This document shows, piece after piece, positions 13,921 to 64,000 of a stretch of DNA of 64,000 bases; the first letter of the stretch is position 1; every line of letters starts with the position of its first letter. Source of the DNA: Meghimatium bilineatum (lineage: Eukaryota > Mollusca > Gastropoda > Stylommatophora > Philomycidae); contig CM067309.1 of the NCBI GenBank assembly GCA_034231615.1, forward strand, positions 22,625,965-22,689,964, given 5' to 3'. The position numbers and the translations under genes were made by a program. Below the pieces are notes generated by a model. The model searched no databases. It was not told the origin of the DNA and saw nothing but the letters and a program-made list of their open reading frames with translations.

Positions 13921-14164
13921 GGAATGAAATTTTAAACATAACCGGTAACTAGCATTCTGTGTAACAACATCACTGACCAGCGATGAATGTTTCTGTGGAA
14001 TGTGGATGTCAGTAATACTATATTTTATACTAATATTTTATTTAATATTTTGCAGACTATAATTCTAATGAGGCTCTACACAGAAACTATATAATATTGA
14101 AAGTTTTTTAAGAACTGAGAAGTTTCTTCCACTGGCACATATTGCCTGCTCCGAAACACAAAAT

Positions 14165-14857
14165 ATGCTTCATTGTTGTAAAATAAAACCGGGCCTAAGA
14201 TCAACAGGTCTGCAAAACGTTTTAATTAATTTAACTACACTGTATACTAAACAATTCTTGCCATGTGGACTTGATGCATTTTCATACTCTATTGACTGTA
14301 AATATGTTCCAGTTAGTGAAAAATTGAGTATACCTGATCTGCAGAAACTCCAGAATTTCATAAACATACATCGTAAGTTATTTGTATTAACTGGTGCAGG
14401 TATTTCTACGGAAAGTGGTATACCTGATTATAGATCAGAGGGGGTGGGGCTGTATGCGACCAGCACTAATCGACCTGTTAATTATTCAGAATTTCTTAAA
14501 AGTGCATCATTGAGGCAGCGTTACTGGGCCAGGAATTTTATCGGTTGGCCTCAGTTCTCGTCAACTCAACCCAATAGATCACATTATATTCTCAGTGATT
14601 GGGAGAGACAAGGTAGAGTTCATTGGTTGGTTACACAAAATGTGGATGCATTGCATTATAAAGCTGGATCGCAGAATGTTACAGAACTACACGGAAGCGC
14701 CCACCGTGTTCACTGTTTATCGTGCTCCTTTCAATTGACGAGACATGAAATGCAAGACATGATCCACGACCTTAATCCAGGATGGTTCGTAGAAGCTGTT
14801 AGCATTGGACCGGATGGGGATGTGGATATCAAATCTGACCTCATAAAAGACTTCAAG
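14165..14857 (+). CDS. SIRT4: SIRT4 coding exon 1
   Basis: It encodes residues 1-231, from the initiator Met through the NAD-binding motifs, catalytic His176 and the first zinc cysteine pair, ending GDVDIKSDLIKDFK. The donor is AAG|GTAATT at 14857/14858, phase 0. The open frame runs on past the donor into the intron, but that part is a 30-bp minisatellite. Confidence 0.93.
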
Positions 14858-32400: not shown

Positions 32401-35400
32401 TGTCTATCTTGTGGTAAACGAAAATTTATTATCAACTATGCCACTGAACTTTGCAGGCCAAAAAATATCCCTTGGTGCCAGTTACTGTGTAAACGGTAAG
32501 CAGGGAATTGGACTTGGGTCAACTACATCTATCTCGTATGAGGTGTTCTTCTGCCGGTTAACTTATTTTGTGTAATTAGATGGACCAATGCCCCACATGT
32601 CCTCAGGCATTGAATTATTCTTTATCTGCAAACCTCATTCCGGTATAGGAAATGCTTGCCAGTAGAATTGGACTGGTTGGTTCACCCTCTTAGCCAAACA
32701 TTGTGAAAACCTCATTAAAGTTTGAACTTCCAGACACATTTTTCTGCAGACTGGGATGATTGAACTTTCTTGGGATGATTGAGTTGTTTTGAACAATTAG
32801 GCTTACCACTTTTTTGTTTGTTTTGTATGCTACATTCTTCTGGAAATTGTTTTTCAATATATTTTACCACTAATGTTGTTCCAAGACCTTTGTAATCTTA
32901 TTTCTCACATGATCTCTTCTTGTTCTGGACAGCTTTTTACCAGACTAAAAATGGAAATCTGGCCCACGGGATCAACACATTAAAAATTGTGGATGAACCA
33001 GTGAAGACTGACCTCGTACACAATCCTGTTCATGACATTGAATAGATGAAAAGCAAATACTGATTGTTTAAGAGTAAGCTTGACAGCTTGGAGTGGGTAG
33101 ATGGGGGGGAACAATGGAATTTGCCTTTCACTGCCACAGAGAGGTGGGGGGGGGGAGAGAGTTATGATTACCTTACTTTAACCCTTTCTCCACTATGAGA
33201 TTTCTCAATTATCAATCCCCCATCACTAAGACAAGAGCACAACTCCTCCAAATTATTGATATGATAATGTTAAAAATGCATTTTCTTTCACACTCAGACT
33301 TGGCAGATCAACAGAAAAATGAATAGTCTTACATGAACCTATATCAAAGATAATTTAATGCTTATATATTTTTTTTAATGAACTGTCAAAATCAACATAA
33401 TGTGGGGAAAATTATTTTTTTTACCTTGAGAGTGCTGAGTAGTGGAGTCATATTGAGATTAAAATATTGAGACATAAATATTGAGACAAAAATATAGAGA
33501 TATATTCTCAAATCTTTTCCCCAAACAGGTTGATATACCCAAAATGTTGAATGCAACATCTGTACTCCAGTACATGCCATACTCAAGCAGAATACACAGG
33601 CCCATCACAATACAAATATAAAAGACGTTTTATTTCAATGGCAGTTACAGATATCCAGCATGTGTCTTTTTTCCTTGTTTGTTCTTTGCTTTATGTTACA
33701 TACAAATTTGTCTGATCTGCTGCAAATTGATAAACTCCTCGCTGACAATGATGCTAAAGTATTCATAACGTGTGGCAATCTCATCAAGATTATGCACAGA
33801 CACAATGTTTTGTACAGAATTCTCAACTTCTACTCAAAAAACTACATCACTCCAGCGAAATTCACAATGTCACAATTAGCACCACAAATTTCTTTGTCTT
33901 TGTCGGAAACATTAGGTCTATCTAATAAGGAACTTCACCGTCACTTTCCACATTATATTTGGTACGCAAATTACCTACATTGTGCATATTTCCATCGTAA
34001 CTACTGCGGTCATCATCAGTGTACATAATAGTGTACTAATTATGTAATAGTGATCGCAACGAAACAAGTGAAAAAAGCGACCCCCAGCGAGTGTGTCGAC
34101 CAGTAGAAGCAAAGCACGGCAACTCTAAGGGAGATCTGGTTAAGGAATCTTGAAGAAGAAGAAGAAACACACTAATGAGTGCAGCAATAATCAGATGTGC
34201 ACAATCACACGTCCTCACCTCTTCATTTAATCTAAGCAATCTTAAGAAGAATAAGAACAATTTATTACAAAGTACACTGCCGAAGATGGATGTGTTGGGC
34301 AATTGGTGCAAATAAAATGGCAACACAACGCATTTCCATTCTCTAGACTACATTCATCTGGAAATCTTGTAGGACCACTGTCCTGTTACAAGAGAAATCT
34401 AGCGGGAGTTTGAGAATGAACACTGAAGAAGAAGAATAAGATTACAAAGTACAACAGAAAACATGATGAGATGGAATGACTGTACCACAAGTCTTCAAAC
34501 TGTCTAGCCAGGAGAAGTCACATCATCACAAATAACAGTTTAAGACCATATATTCTTCTTGCAGACTGCACTTGAAATGTTAAAATTCTATAACTGGACT
34601 CTCCTATTGATCTAAAGTAAAGTTAACCCATAGCATTCAACTGCTGTAGGGTTGTGAGATGTTAGCGATCTCATATTTCAGTGGCTCTGCTATATGAGGG
34701 TGGTAGCCATCTCCTCTCCCTCGCAGTCTTTACTTCCTGGACTGATCCAGTGTCCAATTCAGGCTGGGTCAACCCTGGAGCAGTTGCTCTCTGAAAAACA
34801 TTTCTACCTCAACTGGGGAATGACCATTGATATAAAACTGATAGTGAAATCCCATTATAACAACTTGATGAAATATTTAGTATCAGAAATTCATAATATA
34901 CAGTACAACAAATAAAGAAACAAAATAATAGGGGATTTTGGACAAGTATTATTACATAGGAAAATTTGTGATAAATGTATGTGCAATAGAGATTCCAGTA
35001 GTATTTTCTTACATTTGAAGCTTCCCAGACATTTTCTTCATCCTCACTGCGATGTTTGCTGATTACTTCCTTGATGTTGTACAACAGAAGATTGCCTTGG
35101 TCGTCCCCAACTCCAAGAAGACCTACAGCGAATTATTCAAAATTAATTTCTGAAACACAGATGTCAGGCAGAAAAGACAATCTTAAACCTATATTACAGT
35201 GTAGTTTTTCAAACCTAATATCTTGGTCATTTTATGCTCACAATTTTAATGGTTGCTTCCCTTTTAAAGTCAGATGTTTTTAGATGGATCATTGAAACTT
35301 TCAGGATGATACTTGATATGTATGATATTCTGTATGATGATATTCTGTATGATGATATTCTGTATGATGATATTCTGTATGATGATATTCTGTATGATGA

Positions 35401-38400
35401 TATTCTATATGATGATATTCTGTATGTATTTAAATTTGTAAAAACATTTGTTTCTTAAAAATTGTGTAAATAAAAAAATGTTATGCATTTTTACAAGGTA
35501 TATTTTTACAAGGTATATTTTTACAAGGTATATTTTTACAAGGTATATTTTTACAAGGTATATTTTTCTTTGCCCATTCTCTGTGGCGGAATGGTACAGA
35601 GCATGTTTGTGATGGCCAAAGTGCCAAGTTCGATCCCTGCCACAGGCAAATTTACATCTAGACCATTCAGAAAGCAGTGGCAAACTACTAAATGTATTTA
35701 TATTGCCTAGAAAATCATTACAATAAAAAAATGTTGGGTTGATGACTACATCCTGAATAGTATACGCTACCAATATTTTTCTTATTTAGTTTCACATTAG
35801 TTTTCTAAAATGAAATATTATTATTCTTTGTCAGTGTTCATTCTCAAACTCCCGCTTGTAGCAGGACAATGGTCCTATTAGATTTCCAGCAGGATGTAGT
35901 CCAGAGAATTGAAATGCGTCGTCTCCGTTTTATTTGCGCCAATGGCCTAACACATCCGTCTTCAGCTGAAACTTGACATATGAATTGGGAATTATTAGCT
36001 TAGAACTGGTTTCGTTTGACTTCAATATATTCATCTTATTCTGAGCCTGTGTGCTTCCGGACACGAAAGACTGTTAAACATAGCAACTGTTTAACGTCCA
36101 TTCATGTCATCTTAGATTGAGATATCTGACACAACATTCATATCACCATTACTCTATCTTTGAGATATCTGACATAACATTCATCTCACCATTACTCTAT
36201 CTTATATTGAGATATTTGACATAACATTCATCTTACCATTACTCTATCTTAGATTGAGATATTTGACATAACATTCATCTCACCATTACTCTATACTAGA
36301 TGGAGATATTTGACATAACATTCATCTCACCATTACTCTATCTTAGATTGAAATATCTGACACAACATTCATCTCACCATTACTCTATCTTAGATTGAAA
36401 TATCTGACACAACATTCATCTCACCATTACTCTATACTAGATGGAGATATTTAACATAACATTCATCTCACCATTACTCTATCTTAGATTGAAATATCTG
36501 ACACAACATTCATCTCACCATTACTCTATCTTTGAGATATCTGACACAACATTCATCTTACCATTACTCTATACTAGATGGAGATATTTGACACAACATT
36601 CATCTTACCATTACTCTATACTAGATGGAGATATCTGACACAACATTCATCTTACCATTACTCTATACTAGATGGAGATATTTGACATAACATTCATCTT
36701 ACCATTACTCTATACTAGATGGAGATATCTGACACAACATTCATCTTACCATTACTCTATACTAGATGGAGATATTTGACATAACATTCATCTTACCATT
36801 ACTCTATACTAGATGGAGATATTTGACACAACATTCATCTTACCATTACTCTATACTAGATGGAGATATTTGACATAACATTCATCTTACCATTACTCTA
36901 TCTTAGATTGAAATATCTGACACAACATTCATCTCACCATTACTCTATCTTTGAGATATCTGACACAACATTCATCTTACCATTACTCTATACTAGATGG
37001 AGATATTTGACACAACATTCATCTTACCATTACTCTATACTAGATGGAGATATTTGACATAACATTCATCTTACCATTACTCTATACTAGATGGAGATAT
37101 CTGACACAACATTCATCTTACCATTACTCTATACTAGATGGAGATATTTGACATAACATTCATCTTACCATTACTCTATACTAGATGGAGATATTTGACA
37201 TAACATTCATCTTACCATTACTCTATACTAGATGGAGATATTTGACATAACATTCATCTTACCATTACTCTATACTAGATGGAGATATTTGACATAACAT
37301 TCATCTTACCATTACTCTATACTAGATGGAGATATTTGACATAACATTCATCTTACCATTACTCTATACTAGATGGAGATATTTGACACAACATTCATCT
37401 TACCATTACTCTATACTAGATGGAGATATTTGACATAACATTCATCTTACCATTACTCTATACTAGATGGAGATATCTGACACAACATTCATCTTACCAT
37501 TACTCTATACTAGATGGAGATATTTGACATAACATTCATCTTACCATTACTCTATACTAGATGGAGATATTTGACATAACATTCATCTTACCATTACTCT
37601 ATACTAGATGGAGATATTTGACATAACATTCATCTTACCATTACTCTATACTAGATGGAGATATTTGACATAACATTCATCTTACCATTACTCTATACTA
37701 GATGGAGATATTTGACATAACATTCATCTTACCATTACTCTATACTAGATGGAGATATTTGACATAACATTCATCTTACCATTACTCTATACTAGATGGA
37801 GATATTTGACATAACATTCATCTTACCATTACTCTATACTAGATGGAGATATTTGACATAACATTCATCTTACCATTACTCTATACTAGATGGAGATATT
37901 TGACATAACATTCATCTCACCATTACTCTATACTAGATGAAGATATCTGACACAACATTCATCTTACAATTACTCTATACTAGATGGAGATATTTGACAT
38001 AACATTCATCTTACCATTGCTAAATCCCAGATTGAGATATTTTATATTGTGCTGTGGGTACTTCAGCTTTAACAAAGGCTCTATGGGAACTTCCCTCTTC
38101 TGTTTCTCCACATGTTTTCGGAGATCCCAAATGAGAATCTCCCCTGAACCTACTTGCTTGGTTGCTATAAAGAGAGGACAAATATGAACGCAAGTTATAA
38201 TCAAGTGAAGACAGTTGTCCTGCACTTGCTTCTTGTCCCTGTGGTTCAGAGTTTGTTCCACGATTGAGACAAAACATTTCAAGTGGCTTCAGACTGTATA
38301 TAGATCTAGTACTATGGAAGATAGCATCTGTGTTTCACTAGGGTCATTCTAAATCTTCATCTGCGGTGATCATTCTCAAACTCTCGCTGGATCTCTCTTG

Positions 38401-41400
38401 TAGCAGGACAATGGTTCTACTAGGTTTCTGGTAGGATATAGTCAAGAGTAAGAAAATGTGTTGTGTCACTGTTTTATTTGTGCTAATCGCTCAAAACATC
38501 CATCTTCTGCGGTTTACTAGGGTCCATAAGGGAAGAAAATAATAATAATAACACTGCCACCTGTTATGGCATCTGTGACAAAGAAAATTGCATCTGTGTT
38601 TTACTAGGATACAAAAGGGACTCAAAAGACATAGAGGAGTGACTTTATTGTATAAATAACAAAAAAATCGGAAGATAACCGACAAAATCGAGTGCCGCAG
38701 TAATCAAACGAATAAGTAGGAAATACAAAAAGGAAGTAAAATGGTTACTAAAGAATACCTACCTTTCATTAGTAAAAAAAATAATAGCTAACAATAAAAC
38801 ATAGAACAAGGACAATTTTCTACATTGCGGTCCAACTGGGACCTTTTTCAAGAAACAAAAAGACTATCAAAAACACAAAACCATAAATATATTAACAGCT
38901 ATAATGAATTGAACCTGTCACCAAAGAAACACGGTCAAGTGAAAATATGCAACAACAATTTCAGGTATTCTCAGGAATACAGCAAGAGCAGCACGAGAAC
39001 CTTTGCACCCCTACCCACCAGTAACACTCAGCATACACAAAAAAACTGTGTGCCTGTGGGAGAGAATTGGATGAAAAAGATGTGGCTGGCAGCAAAAGTA
39101 TTTAAAGGATATAAAGTGGAATAATTAGATCTATTCACTGATGATGTAATAATTTGTGTCATTCTCTACTAAATTAATATAATTGGTGCGACTGTCTGAT
39201 AAAGTAATATGATTAGTGCTATTCTCCGATAAAATAATACAATTAATACTAATCACAGACACACGAATTATTACTCGGAATACGTCACAACCTAAAGGTC
39301 AAATTCCTTTACACATTACGATTGATAGAACAAAGAGGTCAGCTCATTTATTCACTAATGATTCTGTTGATTTTTTATGCAATACTTCATTCGAACGTTT
39401 ATGGATTATGTTTCGACAATGATTTCTTGGGAATTACAGTAGTTATCATATAAAATATTATTAAAACGTTAATTTTTGAGAATATATCCAGACATTTTGT
39501 CAATTCATATAAGACTAGTACATTGTATGTAATGAGGATTGTGTCCAACAGAAATTTCTTTGAGGTCAAATGTTGGGACCACGTGGCATGGTACATGATC
39601 GTCATGGTAAGTAAGTATTTACATGTTTTTGTTGTTGTTATATTATAAGAATGTTCGTTTCTTAATTGAATAATACAAAAATAATATTTATCAGGGGTGC
39701 CATGGGTCGACATGAAAAATAATTATGTTGCATATCAGCCTAGGCCTAGAACAGATAGACGTATGTGATTTCTTCATGTTTTATTAGCTTATTCAGTCCA
39801 TATTATATTAGTATGAAACAAAATATATACAGCAGGAATAGGTATTTAGGAGGATTTTATCAGTGTTGCCACACATTGCTCAAGTATTAGGTGCATCAAG
39901 AAATTATTTTTGAGATTTTTAAATTGTAGTATTGAGATTTTTCCCCCAATTTTCTACTTCACAACTTACTCACCACTGTAATATCACACATAAACCAAAA
40001 AAAAAAACATGATTATATACATTATTCATTCCTTTATTTACATGTAAAAAAACTATATTGAAATCTATAACAACAAAAAAATTATTGCATTTTCCGAACA
40101 CCAAAAATAATGCACACTGTCAAAAAAGAACCCAGACCCTGGGGGGAAATTGCACACTTGTAATTTGGGGTACTAAAGGTTAACATCCGAAAAGTGTCCA
40201 AAGTCTAATATCCTATTACAGACCGAGGTACAAAGAACATAAGGCCGGTAATAATATTTTGGAATGATGTTTTTATAAAAATTAAGGGACATGCAAAATC
40301 ATGCTAAATGGAAATTAACATGAACTTCAGCCACCGTAAAGACGCAAGGTCATTTCTTTCATTTGCCCCACTCACAGTAAATGAATGAAAAGAATAGCTA
40401 GGAACAATACATTAACCTTTAGCAAGCCAGATTAAAAAATACGAAACGTCTCCCTGCCACCGGATTCTTTTTTGAAAATTTTCATTATTGATGGTGACTG
40501 TTTTGAAAATGTGATAATTTTTTGGTTGTTAGAGATATTTAAATAATATTTGCACATATAAATAAAAAGAATTGAATTATGCATATATTGGTGTAATTTA
40601 TGTACGTGTGTGTGTGATACCAGACGTATGAGAAAGTGGTAAAGACGTTTTTCAGAAAAAAACATATATTTTATAACAAATAAAGAGGGAAAAAATAAGG
40701 AAAAAAAATAACTTACCTTACATATCGAATTCCTTGGCAACACTGTCAACTAAATCACGTAAATCTGTTGTATTTATGTTCTTTCACTGCGAAATTATCA
40801 AAATATAGCCGGGGAACTGTATAAAACATGTAGATTTGCAGTAAAATCGTTCTTTGAGCTTAGGCCTAGAGTTATTTTTTCTGCCACTTCAAAATATTCG
40901 ATATCAAACGTACAAGTCCCCATACCAGCACGGCATTCTGTATATTCACTGCTGTGAAACTAAAGAACCTAATAATCCATGATTCAAGCCACGATTCAAT
41001 GTTATTTTATTCGAAATACGATGAAATAAAGGTCTGTAAAACCGATCCATCATCATGGCATCGTACCGGTGTACAGATGTGGTCAGATTAATTGCTCTTA
41101 AACTTTTACGAATAGCCAGCCATTCTCAAAAACGATCATGTCGGAAGTGGGGGATGTACCGGCTTCGATTGCGCATGTCCCCAGCTATGTGCACGACTGT
41201 GGTACGTGTAAATCTCACGATAATCTCGCTGGGCAGGACGGCCCGCCATCAGCGCGCGCGGCCATTTTGTTTTTCGGCGGCTGGATATCATATCGGCTCG
41301 GTGAAGGTTAAAGATAACACAGCACGACATTCCTGGGCGGCATCCCCAGCCATGACCGCCAGCAATGCAAAAACTGTTGAAGGTCACGCACTAGCGGCCA

Positions 41401-44400
41401 GTAAACAGAAAGTGCAAACACTCACTATAACACATAGAAAGCTTCAATGTTCTTTCGCATGAGTCTGGTTATATACGGACTGAGTATCACTTTTTTTGTT
41501 TCTACAGATATATACACATGCTTAGGCCTAGGCATTTTATTCTGACTTGAATATTATTGTACAAGAGCATGCGTGTCACTGGTTTTTAGGGAAATTCTTT
41601 TTTGCCATAAGTTTTTTCCTCGGTTACCAGTATTTGACGTTATTCTGTGATCTCGTTTTTGTGTGTTTTTATCGGTAATATTTTTAAAGAATTGTACAGT
41701 CCAACAGGCATTTTTCTCAAGAAACAAATAACAAAAATGAAACACACAGAATTATCAAATTATTAAACTATGATTGCATGGAGATGCTTTCTCAACAAAA
41801 ACTCCACACAATGATATGACAAGTAAGTTTAGCAGATGACAATTTAGGTACAAAACAAAAGTGTTCGCATTATTGATAGCCAGAAATAGTAATAGATCAA
41901 GGAAAAAGAGATGCTAAAGATGAAGAAATGATGTTATAAATCAGATCAAGTGAAAGCTTAACATAAAATATGAAAAATGCGAACACAAAAAATGTTCTAT
42001 TTTGTTTTGCTAATTATTTGACACTATAAAGAGACACAACTGTTTAGAAAGACAAATAACGGAGGGCAGAGCACCTGGGCGGAGGAGATAGGGCAGACTA
42101 AGAAGATGATGGACTGACGATATTAAAGATAACATGAATACATCCTTGGAAAATTTAAGCCACATTACCTAAGACAGAGAGGGGCTCATGGAGTTCATTG
42201 GGAAGACAACGATCTGGAGAGAATATGTCACACGACACTCTGTCGAACATCCTCTGACAGTTTGGTTATTTATAAAGTAATATAGCTAGTGCAATTTTCT
42301 GGTCCGTTCATCTGTACAAGGTGGGGAAATTTGGAGATTTCTTCATAATTATTAATATACAGACAAAAAAGTGGTACATAGGAATCAAGCTTTCAACCAA
42401 GAGAGAACTAGAACAGTCAGTCACAATGTGCTGATGGATATAATGATGATCTGGTGACTATTATGCAAAACACATAATGAAAATATCAGTATTTGAAATG
42501 AAATGTTATAGAAAAGTTTTAAGAATATCATGAACAGAAAGATGAACGAAAACAGAGGTCCAGAAAAACCTGAACATAGAAGAAGGATGGCTCCTAAGAA
42601 CTATCAAATAATGCAAGCTAATATGTTTTGGACATAAAATGACACAATGGTTTAGAAAAATTAATCGTGGAGGAAAAAGTACCAGGAAAGAGAACAAGAG
42701 GCAGTCCAAGACTACAATAGATACAGGATATCGAAGACCTGAACATGAGACTAGAATAGGTTTAACAGCTGGCACAGAACCAAGAGGCTTACAGAGTGGC
42801 AGTGAGGACAACATTCTGTAATGGACATGTCACATAGACGACATACTGAAGACATGCAACAAGCTATTATATACAACTTACCAATCAAGTCTCCAGGCAG
42901 ACTGATCAAGCCATCAACTGTCAATGTCTTTGATTTTGGATGTTGGAAAACGATGTCTGCTTTTCTAAAACAACATAGCAAACAATTCAGAGCTGGACTA
43001 GTCTACACAGAGCTAAACAACAAATACAGTTAAAAACTTTGAATTAATTTTTAGTAAGATATATTAACAATTACGTAATTTTTCTCATGCCACCAAATAC
43101 ACTTTTTTTAAATGTGTGTTATTATTGGTGGCTGTTTTGAAAATGTGATAACTATTTTGTTGTTAAAGATATTTAAATAATATTTGTACATATAAAGAAT
43201 TGAATTGTGCATATATTGGTGTAAGTTTTGTTTGTGTGTGTGTGATACAAGATGTGTGAGAAAGTGGTAAAGATGTTTTTCACAAAAAACAAATTATAAC
43301 AAACAAAACAAAACAAAAATAACAAAAACATTGATTACTTAATTTTTAGAATTTCCTGGAGTGGCAACACTATGATACAGACCTAATTCTACAGTATTTA
43401 CACTGTTTTAATATCAAATGATCATAAATTCACTTGAGAAAATAAATAAACCTTATAGATTTGTCATAAAATCGTTCTCTGAAGCTAGATCTAATTCAAA
43501 ACTGAATCGCTCCAAAATAGTTGATTTTTGGCCTCTAAATACAGAAATCAACGTGGTTGACTATATTCTACTTTGAGAACTAACTAACTCCAAAGAATTC
43601 ATCATCTGAATCACAATCCATTATGATGTTATTGAAAATATGATAAAACAAAAGCCTATAAAACCTGATTCACTTTCATGAAGCTGCGCTGGAAAGAAGA
43701 TGTGGATAGATGCTGTTTATTTTGATATTACAACATACAGTCTATCTTGCCGACTAAACCTATAGAAAAAGGAAGTCAAATTGAATAACTAGCCAGATTT
43801 TTCTAATCTGGTAACCAAAATGTTAAAAATTGTGGTTTCTTTATTGATTACAGGGTGTCTAGCAACGGGGGTGAATGCATTTGACAACAGCGATCCGAGC
43901 GCGGAAAAGTTTTGGTGAAACCATTAGCCAAAAGCATGTTTAATGTTAATACATGAAACAATTCAGATCTGAGCTAGTCTACACAGAGCTAAACAACAAT
44001 TAAAAGCTTCCAATTAACACAACAATTCAGAGCTGAGAATTAGCTATAAAGAGATACAACAACAATTATAGTTAAAAGCTTTTAATTAATACATGAAACA
44101 ATTCAGAGGTCATTCCAATCGAATACAATAATTTTAAAAATAAACAGAAAATGAAGTATGCTCTACGACTTTTCAACTTTGCTCTTTTTCTCATTTGCAG
44201 TTTAACATGTCCACACAGCAAGCCCGGGTTTCTTGATAAATGTTGCTGCATTTGAAAACCCTCAGTGCTCCCATACAGTTTAACATGTCTACACAGAAAG
44301 TCTGATTTACTTGATAAATATTTTTCTGTATATGAAAGCTCCTCAAAACTCACCTACAGTTTAACTTGTCTACACAGAAAGTCTGGTTTACTTGATAAAT

Positions 44401-47400: not shown

Positions 47401-49735
47401 ACCCACAGGCAACGGGTGAGTAAGTAAAACAAACATATAAGCAAGAGATTGAAACAAGACATGTAGTGACAATTATTTCACAGGTGGCAAGTTATCAACC
47501 AATTTTCCTTAGTTCATCCTGCAACATGCCTGGAAAGAAGACAGTGGCCTTATTCTGTGAATCCTGAACTCGAAAAACAGACCCCAGTTGCCACATGGAC
47601 ATAAGCACACAACCATGAAAATTATCATCTAGTAATAACTTTAATCTGTGAGAAAAACATCAAGACTAACATAAAGATAAATTATAATGTAACAAGAATA
47701 ACATAAAGATAAATCATTAAGCAGCAAACTAACGTAACAAGAATAACATAAAGATAAATTATAATGTAGCAAACTAACGTAACAAAAATAACATAAAGAC
47801 AAATCATAATGTAACAAGACTAACATAAAGATAAATCATTATGCAGCAAACTAATGTAACAAGACTGACATAAAGATAAATGATTAAGCAACAAACTAAT
47901 GGAACAAGACTAACATAAATATAAATTATAATGTAGCAAACTAACATAACAAGACTAACATAAAGACAAATCATAATGTAACAAGACTAACATAAAGATA
48001 AATCATTAACCGATTCCCCCTTAGAGCGCAGTAGAGTCGCTTCTACGTGCTGACCCCTAGAGCGCCGCGGAGTCGCTTTTTTTTACTTGTGTGTTTGCGA
48101 TCGATATGACATTTTTGTGTGTGTGCCGAGTTTATTAGAAACCATGACCATTGCGTAGATCCGTGGTTTAGCTTCTGTTTTATGTTTTAATCGGAGCAAT
48201 TGGGCATAAAAATGATTTATTATGATTTATTTTTAAATTAGCGGAGTTTTAACCGATTTTCGAGTCGCTGCAAGCGCTTTCTTTTTACTTATGTCGTTGC
48301 GATCAATATTATATTTTTAGTTTGCGCTGGGTCTATTAGAAACTATGACTATTGCGTAGATCCGTGATTTAGCTTCCTGTTTTATGTTTAATCTAAGAGA
48401 TCGTAAAAAATGGATTTATTACGATTTTTTAAAAATTAGCGAATTATTAGACCTAGTTTTGGAAATGGAAGAGATTATTCATATGTACACTGATGATGAC
48501 AACTGTAGTTATGATGGAAATATGCACGATGTATGTAATTAGCGTATCAAATATAACGTGGAAAGTGACAGTGAAGTTCTTGTTAGATAGGCCTAATGTT
48601 TCCAACAAAGAGATGGACATGAATGGCACTAATTGTGATATCGCAAATTTCGCAGTAGTGATGTAGTTTTTCGAGTAGAAGTTGAGAATTTTGTACAAAA
48701 TGTTGGGTCTGTACATAATCTTGATGAGATTGCCACACATTATAAATACTTTAGCATCATTGTCAACAATGAGTTTATCAATTTGCAGCCGATTGGACAA
48801 ATTTGAATGTAATATAACGCAAAGAACAAGGAAAGAAGACATGCGCTGAACATCTGCAACCGCCAATGAAATAAAACGGCATTTTTTAAATGTATATTAT
48901 GATGGACCTGTGTATTCTGTTTGAGCATGGCATGTACTGGAGTACAGATGACAGGTTCAACATTTTGGGAATCTCACCCTGTTTGGAAAAAGTGGATTTG
49001 AGAATATATCTCAATATTTTCGTCTGAATATGACTCCTCTACTCAACACCCCAAAGGTAAAAAAAAATAATTTTCCCCACATTATGTAGAGTTTGACAGA
49101 TTATAATTTAAAACATATATGTATTAAATTATCTTTGATATAGGTTTATGCAAGACTATTCATTTTTCTGTTGATCTGCCAAGTCTGAGTGTGATATGAT
49201 GAATAGTTTGAAAGAAAATGCAATTTTGTCATCGTCATATCCATATTTTGGAGGAGTTGTGCCTCTTGTGTTAGGGATCATGGATTGACAATTGGGAAAT
49301 CTCATATGGGTGAAAGGGTTAAGCAACAAACTAATGTAACAAGACTAACATAAAGATAAATTATAATGTAGCAAACTAACGTAACAAGACTAGCATAAAG
49401 ACTAATCATAATGTAACAAGACTAACATAAAGATAAATCATTAAGCAACAAACTAATGTAACAAGACTAACATAAAGATAAATTATAATGTAGCAAACTA
49501 ACGTAATAAGACTAGCATAACACGATGTTATGGTACACCAATGGTTACTTACTGAACAGTAGACGTGTAAGCGTAGGATGGAAAAGCAGACAGCTGATAT
49601 ATTTCTTATGTCCACGGATGACAGCATACATAAGAAGTTGGCTGGGGTATATCAGCTTCACCATGGCACCCTCTCCTGTGTTAGAGAAGACAAGCACTGT
49701 ATAGACCGGGAAACTAAGTGCTAACCACTCTAGTG

Positions 49736-49823
<88 letters not shown>

Positions 49824-52800
49824 TATCGTATGCAGTGTTCATTCTCAAACTTGTGCAAATTAACCTTTAGCAAGCCAGATTAAAAAATACAAAACGTCTC
49901 CCTGCCACCGGATTCTTTTTTGAAAATTTGCGTTATTGATGGTGACTGTTTTGAAAATATGATAATTTTTTGGTTGTTAGAGATATTTAAATAATATTTG
50001 CACATATAAATAAAGAATTGAATTATGCATATATTGGTGTAATTTATGTACGTGTGTGTGTGATACCAGACGTATGAGAAAGTGGTAAAGACGTTTTTCA
50101 CAAAAACATATATTTTATAACAAATAAAGAGGAAAAAATAAGAAAAAAAATAACTTACCTTACATATCAAATTCCTTGGCAACACTGTAAACTAAATCAC
50201 GCAAATCTGTTGTATTTATGTTCTTTCACTGCGAAATTATCAAAATATAGCCGGGGGAACTGTATAAAACATGTAGATTTGCAGTAAAATCATTCTTTGA
50301 GCTTAGGCATAGAGTTATTTTTTCTGCCACTTCAAAATATTCGATATCAAATGTACAAGTCCCAAACCAACACAGCATTCTGTATATTCACTGCTGTGAA
50401 ACTAAATAACCTAATAATCCATGATTCAAGTCACGATTCAATGTTATTTTATTCAAAATACGATGAAATAAAGGTCTATAAAACTGATCCATCATCATGG
50501 CATCGTACCGGTGTACAGAAGTGGTCAGATTAATTGCTCTTAAACTTTTACGAATAGTTAGCCATTCTCAAAAACGATCATTTCGGAAGTGGGGGATGTA
50601 CCGGCTTCGATTGCGCATGACCCCAGCTATGTGCACGGACTGTGGTACGTGTAAATCTCTCACGATATTATCGTTGGGTGGGCCGGGCCGCCAAAAGCGT
50701 GCGCGACCATTTTGTTTCTTGGCGGCCGGGATTGATATAGGCTTGGTGAAGGTTAACAGGATGTAGTCTGGAGAACAGAATGTATTGTCATATGGCAACT
50801 TTGCAGCAATATCTGCCACCCCTGAGACTGGACAAACTTTTAGTTTTTAGGAGATATCAATAAACCAGAGGTGGGTGTGTTCACTGTTCACACCCACTGT
50901 CAATTCAATTGCAATTAGAAAATTCAAGGGAAATAAGAGATACCCTTCAATTGTCCCTTGGTGAAATCAGGGGAGGCAAGCCAGAAACTTGGCAGGTAGA
51001 CATCATCTAGTACCATTTCTGCAACAAAGAATGGATGCAACAGATCTCAACATCCCCTGCCTCTTGTTTTGGTGATGCACTCTGCTAGACTTAACCCTGT
51101 CCATCTTGTGATGTTATTATCCCACACGTATCTCTGTCTACCTCTTGCTCGTTTCCCTTTGACTTTACCTTCAAGTAAGGTCTTCAATAAGGTGTCATGT
51201 CTTTTAATGTGTCCAAAATATTTTATTTGTCTAATCTTGATTTCTCTTAGTAATTCTTTCTTCATATTAAGTGTTTTTAGAACCTCTTAACTTTGTTTAG
51301 TTCCTTCTCTTTCCATGATGTTCTCCCTATTCTTCTATACACCCACATTTTAAAAGGCAGCAATTCTGTCCTCTGTTTGTTTAGTGTCCATGTATCTGCT
51401 GAGCCATACGTTAATATAGAATAGATGTAACATTTTATAATTCTCATTTGAAACTTGTTTGTAATTTGTTTAGAGTTTATTATTTTCCTCATGTCATTGA
51501 GGGTACTTTTGGCCATTCCTATTCTCCATTTAACTTCTGTTTTACATCTGCCATCATTTGTGACAATGCATCCAAGAAATTGATGTTTTACTTGTTGAAC
51601 TTTCTGAATTCAGAAACTGTACATGCTGTAACTGCAGGATATATGCTAGATATAGCAGAATCGTGTATGCTATTGGGCGTTGAAGATCTAAAAAATGTGA
51701 GGGTGTGCTGGTATAAAATATGGAAGGTGTGCTGGTATAACTACATTGTGGATATGCAGTTGTTGCAAATGTGGAAAATATTCCATTATTATATTGAAGA
51801 CACCAGCGAGCTGTGGGTACTGTTAAATTTGTTGGATTGCTATTACTATTGGTGAGTTGTGGAGACAATCTTGCCATCACTGGCATTAGAATATCTTCCT
51901 TTGTTTCTGTAGCAGGAAATAACACAGGCACAGATACATCATGATCATGAACATTATCAGAATTATCAAAAACTCTCTTTTTTTTTATGCTGCCACAGTT
52001 CATACTTTGATGATGACTACACACGGAACATTCTAAAACAGTTAGGTTAGGATTAAAATCCATCCAGATATGGGCAATGTTAGTAGCTATCAATTTGGCT
52101 CAAGCTAGAGATTTACTATCCTTGTTGATTTGAGTTTATGATTTCGCATTACACACTTGACACACAATGTGGTTGAATGTTTTGTTTCACTATCGTCCAT
52201 GATATGTATCCCATAAATACTAGCCAGGTCACTTTGATATAAGCTACAGGACCGTGGTTTCTTCTGCATCCTTTTATCTTTCTTAGATAATGTTCTTCCT
52301 ACACAAATTCTGCACAAATCATTCAAAAATCGCATGTGTAGTGAACTGCAGTGATCCATCCTGTTTTGAAATAAATTTTAAAATATTATTAATACATTCG
52401 CACAAAAGAAACGTATAACATATACTTATTATAATAGTAAGCAAATTACTATTCTGTGTATGTGTAGCATGCAACGAACTTATTCGAACGTTTATGGGGA
52501 TCCAACCGCGATTGATAACTATCACACAGAACAAGTTCGTAGCGTTAATGCTACACAAAGAGTGAATTTTTTACATGATCTAATTGCGCAATGTAACTAA
52601 TTTCGATCATATATGCACAAGTAAAAGGAGATCTAACTAGATATACATACTAAACTAGTGTTTGATGGTGGCACAATAAGTTTATTTTGGACTTAATATT
52701 TGCCGACCATGAATTGATAAATTATCATGAAGACACGTTCGTAGCGTTAATGCTACACAAAGAATCTTTTACATGATCTAATTGCGCAATGTAACTAATT

Positions 52801-55800
52801 TCGATCATATTTGCACAAGTAAAATGAGATCTAACTAGATATACATGCTAAACTAGTGTTTGATGGTGGCACAATAGGTTTATTTTGGACTTAATATTTG
52901 CTGACCACGAATTGATAAATTATCATGAAGACAAGTTCGTAGCGGTAATGCTACACAAAGAATGAGTCTTTTACATGATCTAATTGCGCAATGTAACTAA
53001 TTTCGATCATATATGTACACGTAAAAGGAGATCTAACTAGATATGCATGCTAAACTAGTGTTTGATCGTGGCATAATAGGTTTATTTTGCACATTCTTAT
53101 GGTAAATGATGATCTAACAAATTTGACACTGTATGTAAAGTAATGATATTAGGCCTACTAAATTAACATGAAGAATAACGAACTTGACTTACCTGTATAA
53201 ATATTGAATGTGCACTGGTCAACAACAATGAAAATCTAATAGAACTTGTACAAAAATATGACGATGGAAAATGTTGAGTGATGCTTGCAAATGCACAAAC
53301 TCTGGCTGCTGTATAAAATGTGCAAAATTGTAATTGAGAAACGGTATCTTTGAACCAGAAGCGAAATCCAAGCCTCCACACGAATTATTTCATTCATTGC
53401 TGGGTAATAAATATGTCAGGTCTGTAACGCCCCTTCAGGACTACAAAAACTGAAATGCCTCGTGTGTGACCAAACTAAGAGTTAACATTTTGGTAAAGAA
53501 TAACATGTGTGCTGCGCCTTTCTGCCTGACACATTCAATTTCAGCATGGCTTCTGTGTCACTTTGACCCTATATGGGATGAGAAAGCTAACTCTACCCCA
53601 TAACCTCCTTATTCGCCTCTTACGATATGCATGGGTGGTAAACAGTGTTGCCATTCTTTTATATAAAAATTAGTTACCGTTAAGATCCGAATATAAACCC
53701 ATCCGATTGTAGGCCGAGAACCTAATTATCCCTTTCCGAAAGTGGAGAAAGTCTAAGATCCGACTATAGACTGACATCCCCAACTTAACAATGCCGGCAA
53801 TAATGAACTTCATCATCATAAGAAAGAACCAACATGCTAAATGGAAATCTTGAATGAATCAAGGAATGAAACCCTGGTGGCTACTGTATTCTGGATCAAT
53901 ATATCCGAAAATAATGAATACCCGGTAGGCTGACTTCCCTATCCATGGCTATAGACGGTTTATGAGGTGGCGAGACTTTGGGGAACAAAGTCTTTCCTGA
54001 ATGAATTGTCTGTGTTGGGTGTCTGGGCGTTATGACGAAGAACAGCGCTAGTGAATAGTAATAGTAATTACTACGTAACTATTATGTCACCGGGTTCTGA
54101 CAGTGATGTTTAAGCGGAAACGATGAATGGCAAGACAGCAAGATCACGTTTGTTTTTATAATGTTTACCGTGTGGGGAGAATACGGTAATAAAATAAACA
54201 TAACAGAAGATTGTGAAAAATGAGGATTGTAGACTATCAACCTGAGGAAGAGATTTAACTACGATCTATCTCAAATAGGAAACATGGATGAGACACCTGT
54301 TTGCTTTGATATGCCTTCTTATCGCACCGTTGAATGCAAAGTGCGAAGACAACGATGCCGTGAGATGGGGTTGTCGGTTTCTTTCATTCCTGGGGGACTT
54401 ACATCCCTCTTGCAGCCACTAGATGTCTGCCTGAACAAACCATTCAAGGACAGACTCCGAGCAAAATGGAATGACTGGATGGCATCATCTGATTTAGCAG
54501 TGACAAAGGGTGGTAACATCAAAAAAGTTGAAATCACCACAATCGTTACGTGGGTCAAAGAATCGTGGTCTGATATTTCATCCGAAATGATCATATCTTT
54601 CAAAAAGTGTTCAATAAGTAACGCAATGGATGGAAGTGAGGACGACACTATCTTAGAGGCCAATGCCGACGACGACAATGTACCAGAGATTGACAATATC
54701 CACCCTGATGTTTCCATGACAGATGATGGCATTCGTGAGTTATTTCAGACAGTGATTCGGACTTTGAAGGATTTCAATGACTGTTTGGACTGGCACCGGT
54801 AAGTTTTTCCTAAATTTTATCGATATTTGATGTTATTCTGTGTTCTGTTTTTGTGTCTACACTACAGATAATTTTGTTTAAACATTTTGCTGTACGCAAG
54901 CCAAACCTCCTATAATTTAGTCTGTTACTATCAAAACACTACCCAGTAGGGCTAGACTATAAACGCCAGTTACTGTTATATAGACGTCATTATATGCATC
55001 CAGTAACTACCGGTACCTACACTTTACCGTAGTTAGTTTAATAAATAACATCAGATACTGGTATACTTTTCTGACCAATTTCGATGATCAATTGAAACCG
55101 TTATGATAGAAATATATGTACCATAACGGTAAATAAATGGTAATACCCATTGCTAAAAATAGCGTTTCCGGGGAAATTATGCTAAAAAAATGACGGCATG
55201 TCTGAAATAACGATATAGACCTAGTAAGTGAGTTTTTATCAAGAAATATCAGAGATTTCGAAGGAAATATTGTATGATATATAGAAATTAATGTAATTAG
55301 AGGCCTAGCATTATGGTAAGTATGCTCTAGATTGCTGGTGAGTCCTAGTCATTTTATCCTGGCTTAATATATCGGGACATGTTTTTTTTAGTGTTTTTCT
55401 CCTTTTTTACTGTGATTTGGGCGTAATTTTTTTTTAAATTTGATCTTACTCGAATATAAGTCGAGGAGTATGAAGTCATCTCTTTTTTTTGTCCAAAAAT
55501 TCTCGGTTTATAAACGGATCTTAACGGTATATAGGATATAGAACAATAAAAATATATTCGTCCGGCAGCAAATAAATAAACTTGAATGTTACAAAGAATC
55601 AATTTTGGCAGTGGTGAAACTTGTTTGGTTTAGACATGTAACGAGACACAACTCACTTTCTAAAGTTATTTTGCAAGGAACAGTTGAGAGTGGAAGAAGA
55701 GGCAAAGAAAATCCTTGATTGACAACATCAAAGAATGGTCTGAGCATGATTTTTCGACACTCATCAAAATGGCTGAGGCTAGAGATGTTTGAAGGGTTTT

Positions 55801-58800
55801 TTTTGTGCTGTTTTCATTGTGACATCCCTACAACTCTGACTGGTTATGGAAACCTGCGTACACCAGATTCTGACGTATTTTACAGCCATGTATTATTTTC
55901 TTCCACATGCACCTACATTTATATTGAGTTTGCTTATTTGTTTATGATTGAACCAATGCATAGCACCTGAGCTATGTGTGAGCTATAAGTGCTCAGTCTC
56001 CCCTAGCAGACACTGCAGAGTATACATCCGATAATTCCAATGTTTCCCTAGTTAAACACATATATTACTTTGTCAGATATATTTGTACCATATTTGATAC
56101 TGAGTCTAACATAACATAACATACGGTTACCTGCAACAGCCAAGATGTTAACCTTTTTCTTGTTTCCAGTTTCAATTGTCGTCCAAGCCAGAGTATAGAA
56201 ATTCTATCAAAATAAGATATTAAAAATTATGTCAAAATAAATACAAAATAGAAATTTTTTCAAAACAGACTAAGTTTTGCAAAAACAATCTTCATTCTCC
56301 TGTCGAAGTCAAACACCGACATGAATTTCTTCAATGAATTGTACTGTGGTCACCAGCTTGTAAAGGGCTATAGAACTTATCCATCAGATGGCCATCATTT
56401 TCCTTGGTGTGGTACAGTGTGCAGTTCTGTCAAATATGTTCAGTGTTTCTGCAGAATATCTAAAGGAGTACATAACAGTGTCATCAATTCCAAGACTTCT
56501 ATACATGTTCTTTGAGCCTATTGTTACTTGTTCTCAATCTAAAAATGAATATTTGCTCCTTTCTTCCAAGCTTGTGGTGGTATAGAAACTCTGCCAAAAT
56601 AAAGTATAGTGATGTCACTCACTGTTACAGTGAACACCCAACATCATGGTATTTTTGGGTCAATTTTGTCATTTTATGGAATGGGTTGTCAAATCCCAAC
56701 CCTCTTTACCCCTTCTTGTTGCATACATGGCAGGAGTCACAAAGTGTTATAATTTTGTGCATTCCATCAAACCTGGCAATACGTGGACAGCAAATAAGAA
56801 TATATAAAAAACTAATGAGTTTCCAAAACTGTGGAAGCAGATTCTATAAACTTCACAGCAGATCCTAATCACCAAATGCCATGACAACAACACGCCCATT
56901 ATCTTCAAATTTCAGACAGAAGACATGCTCGTGTCTTGTTCGATTCGAAAGGGCAGCAACGAATAGCAACACTGTGAAATGCCATGTTATTTCATAAGAG
57001 ATGACAGACATTTTGGGAGTGGAGTTAGCTGTTTCATTTCATAGATCAAATTGTTTTAAAAGTCATGCTGAAGTCAGATATATCTGGCTAAAGACGCACA
57101 TATCCCAGTCAAGCTGTAAACCATGACACAATGTAATCCGTTCTCCTGAATATATCCTGCTCGTCCGTGAGTTGCCAACCTAAGAGGGTAGCAAAAAATA
57201 GCAGCACTCTTTACCTTCCATGCATGTCGTAAGAGGCAACTAAGGAGATTATTGGGTGGAAGTTGGCTGTCCCATCCCATATAGGTTCAAAGTGAGCAAA
57301 AACCATGCTGAAGTCAGGTGTGTCAGGATGAAAGGCGCAGATATCGCCACAATGCTGTAAACCATGACAACACATTCTGTTCTCCTGACTACATCCTGCT
57401 AATCTGCAGGAGTTTGGGAACGAATGCAGAAGAAAATAAAGTAGAAGCAGGAAACAAAAGACTAGGGCACATACAAAAATCATAAAATTGGTGAGACGGA
57501 CTAGTGTACACTTAAACCTCAGAAACTGTAGAATACATCCATCAAGCAGGTTAGCTCTACAAAAAAGAGCAAAGAAAGTATAGTTTCTAGAAACTGTGCT
57601 GCTACTGAATTTGAGGGGTTCAATAGATGACCTGAGTATGTCACACAGTTCATTAGTGAATGACAAGAACAACAGAGATTATATAGCTTAATAAGTCAAG
57701 TGTAAACTGGTATAGATGTGGGAGAGACTACAGGGCAGCAGCTTAGACCTGGTGATGTCAGTGTGACTGCCATTAAACCATGCTTCTCAGATGACAGGAC
57801 AAAATATGCGCCTAAGAACTGGTATATCCACTAACTTGGTATCTCATGGCATTTTAATCTTAAGGTCCATCATTCCTACATATAAATACCTTATTGTGTA
57901 GTATCAATTTTTCCTTTATTTTTGTTTTGTTCCTCTAGTTTTTACACTATCAGTTGTCATTCATACTATTCCGGATTCCAGGCATGTGTACTCATTAGCT
58001 CTGTTATGTTATTGCCAACAGTACTGTCTATTACTCAGCTTGTGCTTGCTGTGTTCTTGATAAATGCATTTTAGTGGAAATGTCAGTTTTTATGTTTTTC
58101 CTGTGTTTTCAGTAATTAGTAAATCTTCATTAACCTGTTTCCAATTGTCACCTGTTAAACCTGGAGACCTCTGCAGACATTGTCATAGTAACATATTGAA
58201 AGAAAAAAACATCTTAGCATAAATTCCGAAAAAATTAACTCCTTCTCATTCTCAAGATCCTACTTGATCTCTCTTATATATAGTAGGACAATGATCCTAG
58301 TAGATTTCCAGCAAGATCAATTCTCATGATCAATTCAATGAATATGTGTTAAAACTGTAACAAAATATTGAAATACTTACTTCATTTTTGTCTGTGTCTT
58401 GAAAACGTTTTAACACTTGTTGTGTCTCAACATCGATTATACAGATTGTCTTTCCGCCACAAGTGGCCAACAGGTTTGTTGTCTCTTCTGATGATAAAAT
58501 CGTTTTGGTCAAAGCAACAGATATTTTTTTAGAGACATCATAGGTGATCTAACTTTACAGTAATTATAATTACTTCATATCAGGTAAAATGACAAAACAA
58601 TAATCTAAATACAACTTTTTTTATTGTCTATTGTCTTTCCCCAGGTGGTTTGTGATCCACTCTTGCTGTTTTCGCAGAATTAGAGGCATTGTGCCTGTGT
58701 CCATCGAGTACTGAACATTTTCTTTCTGGGCATGGTTCTTGTATGGGACAGCATCGACGGTAGAGATCTGATCTGTTAGGAACACCGAGGACTAGAAGTA

Positions 58801-61800
58801 CGATCTTAAAACTGAGCAGCACTTTAGTTCCGATTTCCTTTTAACGTTTTCCCTTTCTGCTTGCATGTAATGCTGCCCTCTGGCGCAGTGCTGTACTTTC
58901 ATTGTACTTGATACATTGTCTTTTGGACTCATTATTCATTGTGATATCTGCCCATTTCAAGTCAATGCATTGGCCGCCCCTGCAATGCTCGAGCCGGACT
59001 GAGCTGCATTGCCACAGGTATGGGAGATATTGCTTCTTTTGCAATCAATTTTCATTCCATCTGCAGCCTCCATATTCCTGGACATAATCCCAAAAGTGTT
59101 AGCCAGAAGCAGCATGAGCCGCATACTTCTGTTCCAGGGTGCGCCATGAGGAAGTACTTTTGGGATTTTAAATGTCTTAGAAAACTCTTTAAAATTAGTT
59201 GTGAAGAATTCAAGTCAAACAAGAGAAGACATGAAACAGCAAGAATTTTCTATAACAACAATAAGAAAACAATGGACCTATATCAAACATTTATTTATAA
59301 TGAATGAAAACAGGCTGCTACTACAAGCATTAAAATGGCAAAAGAAAGATAGGAAGACCAGAGAGACTCACCGCAGAGCCAATATGGGTCTCAACAACAT
59401 TCAAGAATTACATATAGTAGCATCACATTGCTCAAACTGGTGAGTACTGGTTTCTGTCCTATGCACTATATTCAGCGCTGAAGGAATATGAATTTTCTTC
59501 TTCTCGAACTCCAGGAATTGCAAGCTATTAGCTCTTACTACCTATTTGCAGTTGGGAGATTTCTTCGAGCTTTCTTTCATACCCAGGAGGCTTCAGCTTA
59601 GTGCAATGCCTATTGAAGGAGCTTTCTACTCAGAGGGGGTATTCCGGTATATGTCACGAGACGAGCTGATAATTTGCCTGGGTCACCCATTGTTTGTCTT
59701 TCCTCCGACGAGGCGCTTAGCAGCCAGCGAGCTGTTCCTCATGTAGGAAGACCATTCCATTACACGGAGTTGATACACCTTCGTAGACGAGGTGCTACTT
59801 TGTCAAACACGTCAGGAGTCTGGGATTTAACCTGTGCATTTTTAACGCACTCACCTCGTCCGCTTGAGATGGCCTTTCAATCCATCGCCAGGTGCGGACT
59901 GTGTATTTTGACTCTTCTCCATTGCGTATATCACTCAAAGATGTAGGTAAAATACGAATCTCGGAAAAGGAGCTTCGCAGTGGGTCTTTGGGTACTGAAC
60001 CCAATTCTCTCTGTGTGTGCCGTGTTGGGCAACGCCTGACAGTCAAGTTGGGCTTGGTTTGCCATGTTGTTAGAGACTTGTGCCCTATTCTACATTTCCC
60101 GCAGTGTCCAGAGCTCGAGTCTCACCACTGCTTTGGTCAGACAATTGAACAATGCCCTACCCAACATTTATTTCATTCTTGTCCTGTGTGCAATGGGGAT
60201 CTTCTTCTTCAGCGTTCATTCTCAAACTCCCACTGGATTTGTAACAGGACAATGATCCTACAAGATTTCCAGTTGAATGTAGTCCAGAGAATGGAATAAT
60301 CATTGTGTTGCCGTTTTATTTGTGCCAATGGCCCAACACATCCGTCTTTGGTGGTCAATGGGGATCTGTATTCAAAGCTTTTTCCAATACCCAGAAGTGC
60401 ATGTTCAAGTTGGCATATCCAATACTTAAGTCATGACTCCTACTGTGAATGAGGTCAATTGTGATGGGACATATGAGCTTCTGTGTGTTCTTGAGCATGA
60501 ACAGCACTTCAGCCAATCTGCCTACTGCTGGACTATTGTAGCTTTGTTGTCACTGGATTGATTCACACACTAGCTCTACACTGCCCTCTAGCGTGTTTTC
60601 TTTTCCAGATTCGGTGTGTACTCATAAGATCACCGTCTGTTAGGGACATTGGCATTGGTCGCCCCTCCAATGTTTCTGCTTTTCAAGCCTGCCGAAACAG
60701 AATGCACAGATGTCGTGCATCACTGTGCGCCGACAGTGAAGTTGGATGTAATGGCGTTGAGGTTTCCGAGATATTTCCTGTCTCTTTGCAGGCAAATCTC
60801 ATTCGATCTACAGCATCCACATCCACGAGCCTAAAAGTGTTAGCCAGGAATACAGCAAGAGCAGCTGTATTTCTGTTTCCAGGGTGCACAACGAGGATGT
60901 ACTTTTAGGATCTTGGTTATCTGCTAACCCTCGGTCCACACGAGAGCAATGCGAGACCTTTTGCACCCCAGGAACATAGATAGACATAGAGGTGTACTAA
61001 ATAAGTCATGATAAGTCATACCTGGATTATCCAAAGATGGCTCAAATGCACATTTCCAAATTTTTGTCTCATCGTCATTACCTTTCTGGTTGTGACAACG
61101 TAGGAATAATGTAGGTGCATAGTCTTCTAAGAGTGGCTTGAAAAATAAAATAAACAGTATTCACAAATTGAGTTGATCTTAGCTGCTACATTTCAAGGTG
61201 GTGTTGATGAGGATGATGATGATGGAATCTAATGGAGTGCTTCCAGTTCCAGACTCATACATGTGTTGCCAGGGCCCAAAAAACTGGGAGCAAAGAATAG
61301 TGACAGTTACTTGTCAAGCAAGAAGTAACTAAGGATGTTTTGGAGTGAAGTTAGCTGTCCCAAACCATACAGGATCAAAGTGACCCAGAAGACATGCTGA
61401 AGTTAAGTTGTCAGGCTGAAATGCGCAGCGAAGCTGTAAACCAAGACACAACACATTCTATCCTCTGGACTACATCCTGCCGATCTACAGGAGTTAGAGA
61501 ATGAACACTAAAGTTCCATAGACTGGCGTTTCTTTAACATTCTTTTAATTGGGAGGTTTTTGAAAGCTTTCGCAAGTCTTCAGATAACTGTTTTACTCAA
61601 TGTGACTTCTAAATGAAATGCCACAAGCTGGACAGTCTTCGACTCTAGAGGGAACGTTGCTTAACTTTCTTACTATCACAAGCCATGCTGCAGACCATCT
61701 GCTTCCTCAGCGTTCATTCTCAAACTTCCGCTGGATCTCTCTTGCAGTAGGACCAAACTTCTAAATTTCAAGCAGGATGTAACCCAGAGAATGGAAATGC

Positions 61801-62992: not shown

Positions 62993-63150
62993 CCGCCGAA
63001 GACAGATGTGTCGGGCCATTGTCGCAAATAAAACGGCAACACAACGCATTTCCATTCTCTGGACTACATCCTTCTGGGAATCTAATAGGACCATGGTCCT
63101 GATACAAGAGATATCCAGTGGGAGTTTGAGAATGAACGTTGAAGAAGAAG
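62993..63150 (+). repeat. SINE family S1, well preserved
   Basis: Close to the family consensus, CGCCGAAGACAGATGTGTCG to GAATGAACGTTGAAGAAGAAG AAG. It faces the preceding copy across 57 bp. 63,150-64,000 holds C-rich and unassigned sequence only. Confidence 0.82.
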
Positions 63151-64000
63151 AAGAAGATAATCCTATTCTTCTACTTACATGTCCTACACATTTCACTTAT
63201 ACTTTCATTACCATTTTGATAATGCAATCTATTAAGGGCCTGAGGACATCAATATCTCAACATCTGAGAAAATTCTTAACACTTGCTCGGTTTAGATTTT
63301 TTTTCTTCTTTCGTTTACTATCCCATTATGTTTTGTGCGTGGCATCCTGATTAATTGTGCGCCTTTTGGCTGGTTGCCTCCGTCTTCAGCACATTGCTTA
63401 CTTGGCAGGACTGTGGTCCTACTCGTGTGGGACTGCCCGATCAGTCTTAGTTTCCAGCCCCTGATGGCTGAACTAATCCCCATCACCACTTCACGGTGCT
63501 GACTTCGATGGGGAGTCTGTAGATGTCCTTCATAGGATATCTCAGGACTGGTTTATGGTTTTTCTAACGAACAAAAAAATATTTTCCCACAACTGACTGC
63601 GTAACAGGATGACATCTTACATTTCTATGTCTTTCTCTCTAGTATTTCAATCCATATCTGACTGAAGCAAGTCAGTAGGTGGGGGGAGAGAGAGGTGTTC
63701 AAACCAACACCCCCCACCCCCTTCCACTTTGCAAATCAGAACATCACTTTTAGTCATCAAATATAGATATTTAAACATGAAAAACACAAATGACCCCCCC
63801 CCTCCTTTTTTTGGTGTGTAAACCACCCCCTTACGGAAACGTGTCTATGGCCCTGGACTGAAGCAATACAAAATATTTAGTGCAAAAATGATACAAGCTT
63901 ATATGAAGAAGAAATAAAACCCAAATCTCTCTAACAAATGTCACATAAAAGAAGGTCAGGAAATTAGATATTTCTTCATAATAACGTACACATGAGAGAA

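Follow-up and report, generated by a model that had tools for sequence, protein, structure and literature searches.

A RAG1-like zinc domain in an intron of LRWD1

In a 64,000-nucleotide stretch of the genome of the gastropod Meghimatium bilineatum (assembly GCA_034231615.1, contig CM067309.1, positions 22,625,965 to 22,689,964; hereafter the window), a minus-strand open reading frame (ORF) of 84 residues, lying in what appears to be an intron of LRWD1, resembles the N-terminal zinc-binding part of the recombinase RAG1. The ORF starts with an ATG at 52,359, reads DLCRICVGR and then TTLCVKCVMRNHK, and closes with a TAG stop at 52,107-52,105 (full translation of 52,359-52,105, minus strand: MDHCSSLHMRFLNDLCRICVGRTLSKKDKRMQKKPRSCSLYQSDLASIYGIHIMDDSETKHSTTLCVKCVMRNHKLKSTRIVNL). 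RAG1-like zinc motifs had been reported in this frame by a preliminary description of the window, and we confirm them: LCRIC (C1) is followed by LCVKCVMRNH (C2), whose C-x2-C-x4-H spacing equals that of CHDCWSIMH in mouse RAG1 (residues taken from PDB entry 6oem). The open pattern CxxC-x(25-90)-CxxCxxxxH occurs once in the six frames of the window, at this ORF, and had a mean of 0.05 occurrences in 40 Markov-1 sequences of 64 kb.

Searching Pfam with the 90-residue stop-to-stop frame gave RAG1_imp_bd (PF12560) as the best family, with an E-value of 0.032 and 14.2 bits over model positions 92-176, and phmmer against 177,635 distinct PDB sequences returned a RAG1 fragment first (21wb_A, E 0.14). 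This chain overlaps the RAG1 central non-core domain, given as residues 87-217 in PMC3124419. Taken alone these E-values are weak. A profile scan of the 114 ORFs of at least 80 residues yielded 26 families at E ≤ 0.1, with about 11 matches expected by chance (114 x 0.1) and 3 to 4 at E ≤ 0.032, RAG1_imp_bd being matched by one ORF of the 114. They count, however, because RAG1 had been named before any search was made.

Direct comparison with mouse RAG1 points the same way. The locus came first when mouse RAG1 residues 83-390 were compared with the window by tblastn (BLOSUM45, without composition adjustment; E 0.007, the next match having E 0.93), and pairwise BLASTP of the ORF with mouse RAG1 gave 2e-5, with 19 of 79 residues identical. 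The Smith-Waterman score of the ORF against mouse RAG1 83-228 was 64, a value reached by none of 20,000 full shuffles and by 11 of 20,000 in which Cys and His were fixed in place. A frameshift-aware RAG1 scan of 254 overlapping 1-kb tiles scored 63 at the locus and 45 at the next (mean 31.2, standard deviation 5.2). The C1 CxxC and C2 CxxCx4H motifs stand in order and similarity extends beyond the ligands, as measured against RAG1 alone. At the level of sequence, we therefore regard the RAG1 N-terminal resemblance as real and the ORF as a homologue of the RAG1 central non-core domain.

DegT (Pfam E 0.15 for the frame and 0.037 for a 130-residue read-through that joins it to the second frame described below) and tryptophanyl-tRNA synthetase (PDB E 0.24 and 0.33, respectively) were taken as chance matches. 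An AlphaFold model from the single sequence had a mean predicted local distance difference test score (pLDDT) of 56.6 and was left unused for fold searches. Relatives in viral contigs or prokaryote genomes were expected to be few or none, and scans of these gave no confirmed relative. With the ORF as query, three viral contigs (L001-L003) shared a 21-residue match, the L001 frame having an internal stop and L002 and L003 being judged by match statistics identical to those of L001. When viral contigs were scanned with mouse RAG1 83-228, 0 of 3 pattern matches were confirmed, and with the second frame 0 of 26; a scan of prokaryote genomes with an alignment query confirmed 0 of 105.

We also compared the frame with ZAD (zf-AD), likewise a zinc domain with two CxxC pairs. 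The contest between RAG1 and ZAD profiles on which the preliminary description had staked its reading came out for RAG1, RAG1_imp_bd being at the top and ZAD unlisted for the frame in the Pfam search at E ≤ 10. Alignment with the Grauzone ZAD (1PZW) scored 34, which 82 of 5,000 full shuffles reached and 278 of 5,000 with Cys and His fixed, whereas the RAG1 score of 64 was reached by none of 5,000 in either scheme. The ZAD alignment is thus near background save for DLCRICV, which by itself matches Grauzone. A ZAD identity, fitting far worse than RAG1 by profile and shuffle scores, was rejected.

A broken frame and a missing 3′ side

A second open frame, from 52,099 to 51,557 on the minus strand, starts AKLIATNIAHIWMDFNPNLTVLECSVCSHHQSMNCGSIKKKR and has no Pfam match at E ≤ 10. 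It carries a tryptophan, a CxxC and a basic run (KKKR) that recall the C3 motif of RAG1. The pattern W-x(4-12)-CxxC-x(3-20)-[KR]3 is found in 23 of 18,172 overlapping 250-nt tiles, all 23 at this one place. The preliminary description had read this segment as the continuation of the domain in another frame. The motif is there and is unique in the window, but its W-to-CxxC spacing is 11 and not the 6 of mouse RAG1, and it sits behind both the TAG of the first frame and a TGA of its own. Because the TAG closes the first frame and this TGA precedes the second, this copy cannot encode the two as a single product. A short second intron was rejected on inspection as the cause of the frame change, the gap being too short. 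This copy is frameshifted and its reading frame is broken.

Farther downstream a retrotransposon fragment truncates the gene. The fragment was recognized by its protein similarity to an ORF at 30,066-30,395 and is presumably of the non-long-terminal-repeat (non-LTR) kind, a label that follows motif style and not a family match. No RAG1-core, RAG2 or Chapaev-named family was among the 25 of 26 families listed for the 114 ORFs, or among the 11 listed for the 58 ORFs between 46.9 and 56.1 kb. Neither a RAG1 core nor a convergent RAG2-like gene was among the families listed, the RAG1 core sequence itself lying outside the mouse query, which ends at residue 390. At the locus we found no RING and no core of RAG1. 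The one core-like family listed beside it was a DDE_1 fragment on the other strand and of another element, in a scan library with no known Chapaev model. Because the retrotransposon fragment removes the 3′ side of the gene, the absent core is uninformative on the parent element. It can be credited to this copy only, and the reading of a transposon without a RAG core is not supported.

The DDE_1 transposase fragment just mentioned (54233-54802, plus strand; E 9.1e-13) is one that we take to be of pogo/Tigger type.

Ends were sought as inverted repeats anchored on CAC/GTG with a 3-5 bp duplication. The single candidate (11 of 16 matches) falls inside the ORF, and as many matches or more were seen in 4 of 35 control regions. 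By blastn, the 64-kb window contains no second copy of the coding part.

Putative leader exon, intron and position within LRWD1

Upstream of the ATG are the signals of a splice junction. A perfect donor, CAG|GTAAGT, would close an exon at 53,193, with the intron opening at 53,192; this 9-mer is found twice on the minus strand of the 64 kb and not at all on the plus strand. The acceptor, ...aaaacag|G, closes the intron at 52,361, one base ahead of the ATG, for a putative intron of 832 nt. The junction proposed in the preliminary description thus has the right coordinates, and the spliced 5′ exon that it postulated is plausible from the perfect donor. The repeats that it placed in the intron are also present, as 2.8 tandem copies of 198 bp followed by a further, 72% copy that extends to 53,161.

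Across the region 52451-53161 these repeats bear the palindrome-like sequence AAGTTCGTAGCGTTAATGCTACAC, part of which recurs in inverted orientation just beyond the edge of the array, near 52,451-52,470. Such palindromes may possibly serve an element as sites for protein binding.

The WD_LRWD1 profile is matched, in collinear order, by three ORFs on the minus strand, none of which reaches the cut-off singly; the first two exceed it when combined with two further pieces (E 2.3e-11), and the third match rests on collinearity. As the zinc-domain locus lies between the second and the third, it would sit inside an intron of LRWD1 and share the strand of that gene, and the placement given in the preliminary description is supported from both sides. 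No match to the WD_LRWD1 family was obtained for the WD-like ORFs near 38.2 and 35.1 kb.

Table 1. Features of the zinc-domain locus and of the LRWD1 exons around it
Feature	Position	Strand	Basis or remark
LRWD1 WD ORF, profile 12-43	60,927-61,160	-	E 0.0025
LRWD1 WD exon ORF, profile 47-87, upstream of locus	58333..58548	-	E 0.0002
Dispersed repeat bounding the upstream side	53511..53659	.	Similar to 57,193-57,340 (81%), 61,330-61,429 and 31,370-31,461
Putative 5′ exon or leader	53193..53510	-	Inferred from donor; upper limit set only by the dispersed repeat near 53,511
Putative intron, CAG|GTAAGT donor, ...aaaacag acceptor	52361..53192	-	Sequence and 9-mer count
198-bp tandem array, 2.8 copies	52531..53089	.	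Tandem Repeats Finder (TRF); inside putative intron
84-residue ORF with C1 (LCRIC) and C2 (LCVKCVMRNH)	52105..52359	-	Homologous to RAG1 central non-core / Chapa domain
W-x11-CxxC...KKKR (C3-like), then linker	51610..52099	-	Frame offset from ORF; low end approximate, set at start of retrotransposon fragment
Retrotransposon fragment (presumably non-LTR) cutting off the downstream side	51000..51610	-	Limits approximate; protein similarity
Next LRWD1 WD exon ORF, profile 107-150, downstream of locus	49548..49838	-	E 0.013; below cut-off, collinear

Elsewhere in the window, one of the 114 ORFs matched Pfam SIR2 (E 1.6e-35), and the text of the ORF at 14072-14995 (plus strand), to which we assign this match by eye, fits a Sir2/SIRT4-like deacetylase. 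A long self-similar tandem array occupies 36109-38042, with offset steps of about 47 bp. A 0.9-kb repeat pair of no assigned family (40411-41311 and 49859-50756) is 94% identical and has a weaker relative at 43,042-43,482, and a dispersed repeat of about 160 bp, resembling a short interspersed nuclear element (SINE), is present in about ten copies in the 64 kb (62995-63158, 34279-34442, 60200-60362 and others).

Origin of the zinc domain

The RAG1 N-terminal zinc finger is described in PMC4411706 as the Chapa domain, which that paper reports as coupled to a Transib-related transposase in Chapaev and Chapaev3, as present in Chapaev, Chapaev3, TransibSU and RAG1, and as not encoded in other known transposable elements. 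Since the domain is reported in Chapaev and Chapaev3, a decayed Chapaev-type N-terminus is the most economical source. We therefore think it probable, although well short of assured, that the locus is what remains, in decayed form, of the 5′ part of the transposase gene of a DNA transposon within the LRWD1 intron, most likely from an element of the CMC group (Chapaev or Chapaev3); we infer in this its transposon nature, its Chapaev type and a core formerly downstream. In the intact element splicing would have joined a short leader exon to the exon that opens with the ATG, and the role of the zinc domain would have been to bind DNA or to place the protein for catalysis by a core encoded farther downstream. 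In this copy the core is absent and the frame broken, with a retrotransposon fragment now lying where the gene should go on. The flanks are rich in transposons (the retrotransposon fragment, the dispersed repeat and the DDE_1 fragment at 54,233), which we count in favour of a transposon. Two-exon transposases exist in the group. PMC4079192 describes Chapaev3 elements in insects, the two-exon transposases of Merrow and Garfield, and a silkworm element of the Chapaev3 group, 2,289 bp long, whose 556-residue transposase is encoded in two exons and which has TWA duplications and CAC/GTG termini.

Several observations weigh against this origin. According to PMC4079192, most other Chapaev3 transposases appear to be single-exon. 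The likeness to Chapaev is drawn from published descriptions and not from a sequence alignment, and the marks by which we would know such an element (a DDE core with C(2)C, LH and H(4)H, and terminal inverted repeats of the form 5′-CAC...GTG-3′ flanked by a 3-4 bp target duplication) were not seen in this truncated copy: no catalytic core was found at the locus, nor CAC...GTG termini or a TWA duplication. The terminal inverted repeats and target duplications that the preliminary description had named as signs of a mobile element do not exceed chance around the locus, and a second copy is absent from the window, although the ends may have been lost. The RAG1_imp_bd score stays below the gathering cut-off of 23.3 bits that marks membership of PF12560. 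The frameshift-aware alignment ends at C2 without reaching the C3-like part, with its divergent spacing, and the 130-residue read-through of both frames has no RAG1_imp_bd match at E ≤ 10 and finds RAG1 second in the PDB (E 0.49). Compared with the vertebrate RAG1 central non-core domain, the locus shares C1, C2 and the aligned stretch to C2, with a C3-like motif and a basic run downstream in another frame, but differs in its 24-27% identity, in a 15-residue gap between C1 and C2, in the spacing of the C3-like motif and in its broken frame.

The preliminary description had instead seen a transposon without a RAG core, related to N-RAG-TP of Aplysia, which PMC8355894 and PMC2996935 describe as carrying a RAG1-N-terminus-like protein outside a RAG core context. 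The locus would then derive from a mobile, core-less protein with the RAG1 N-terminus alone, moved by the transposase of another element. The N-terminal domain does stand alone in the window, with no RAG1-core, RAG2 or Chapaev-named family among those listed, but the retrotransposon fragment cuts off the 3′ side, so that the core-less state here is explicable by truncation, and neither ends nor a second copy lie in the window; the comparison, too, is by description. Chapaev and Chapaev3, reported with the same domain (PMC4411706), had been left out of account. We hold descent from a relative of N-RAG-TP to be unlikely, and a truly core-less mobile element with the RAG1 N-terminal zinc domain only, as an N-RAG-TP relative in a second lineage, to be slightly less likely still. 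N-RAG-TP may itself be related to Chapaev, because three Chapaev elements are labelled ACa in a figure legend of PMC4079192 and ACa stands for Aplysia californica in a figure legend of PMC4411706. Among the open-literature matches listed, no title or abstract start dealt with this locus or with a core-less RAG1 N-terminal element.

That the ORF is instead a degenerate host zinc-finger gene, ZAD-like or other, and no transposon would accord with the lack of transposon ends, with the frequency of CxxC in zinc fingers and with the match of DLCRICV to the Grauzone ZAD; given the ZAD score of 34 against 64 for RAG1 and the absence of ZAD at E ≤ 10, we consider it quite improbable. A fossil RAG1-like (RAGL/TransibSU) transposon or a solitary RAG1L gene would explain the motifs, those named C1-C3 being present in RAG1L proteins as well, but we judge it very improbable: identity to mouse RAG1 is low, no core or RAG2-like match is among the families listed, and Arthropoda, among others, are grouped as having no RAG-like sequence found in PMC7204232, which is also our source for the motifs. 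Finally, with each profile E-value weak alone and 3 to 4 matches as good expected in the scan, the resemblance might have arisen by chance in non-coding DNA; RAG1 had been named beforehand, however, and the full shuffles and the Markov expectation of the motif pattern make this highly improbable.

In conclusion, the locus adds a probable example, outside RAG1, of the zinc domain of Chapa type known from the RAG1 N-terminus, lying in an animal gene intron rich in transposons. The copy in this window cannot decide between a core-bearing and a core-less parent. Were a core-less relative of N-RAG-TP the true source, the domain would have travelled alone before or after joining a Transib-type core, and intact copies ending without a core would revive the idea of an independent transposon. 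If intact copies carry a Chapaev-type core, the locus would agree with the published view that domain and core were joined early.

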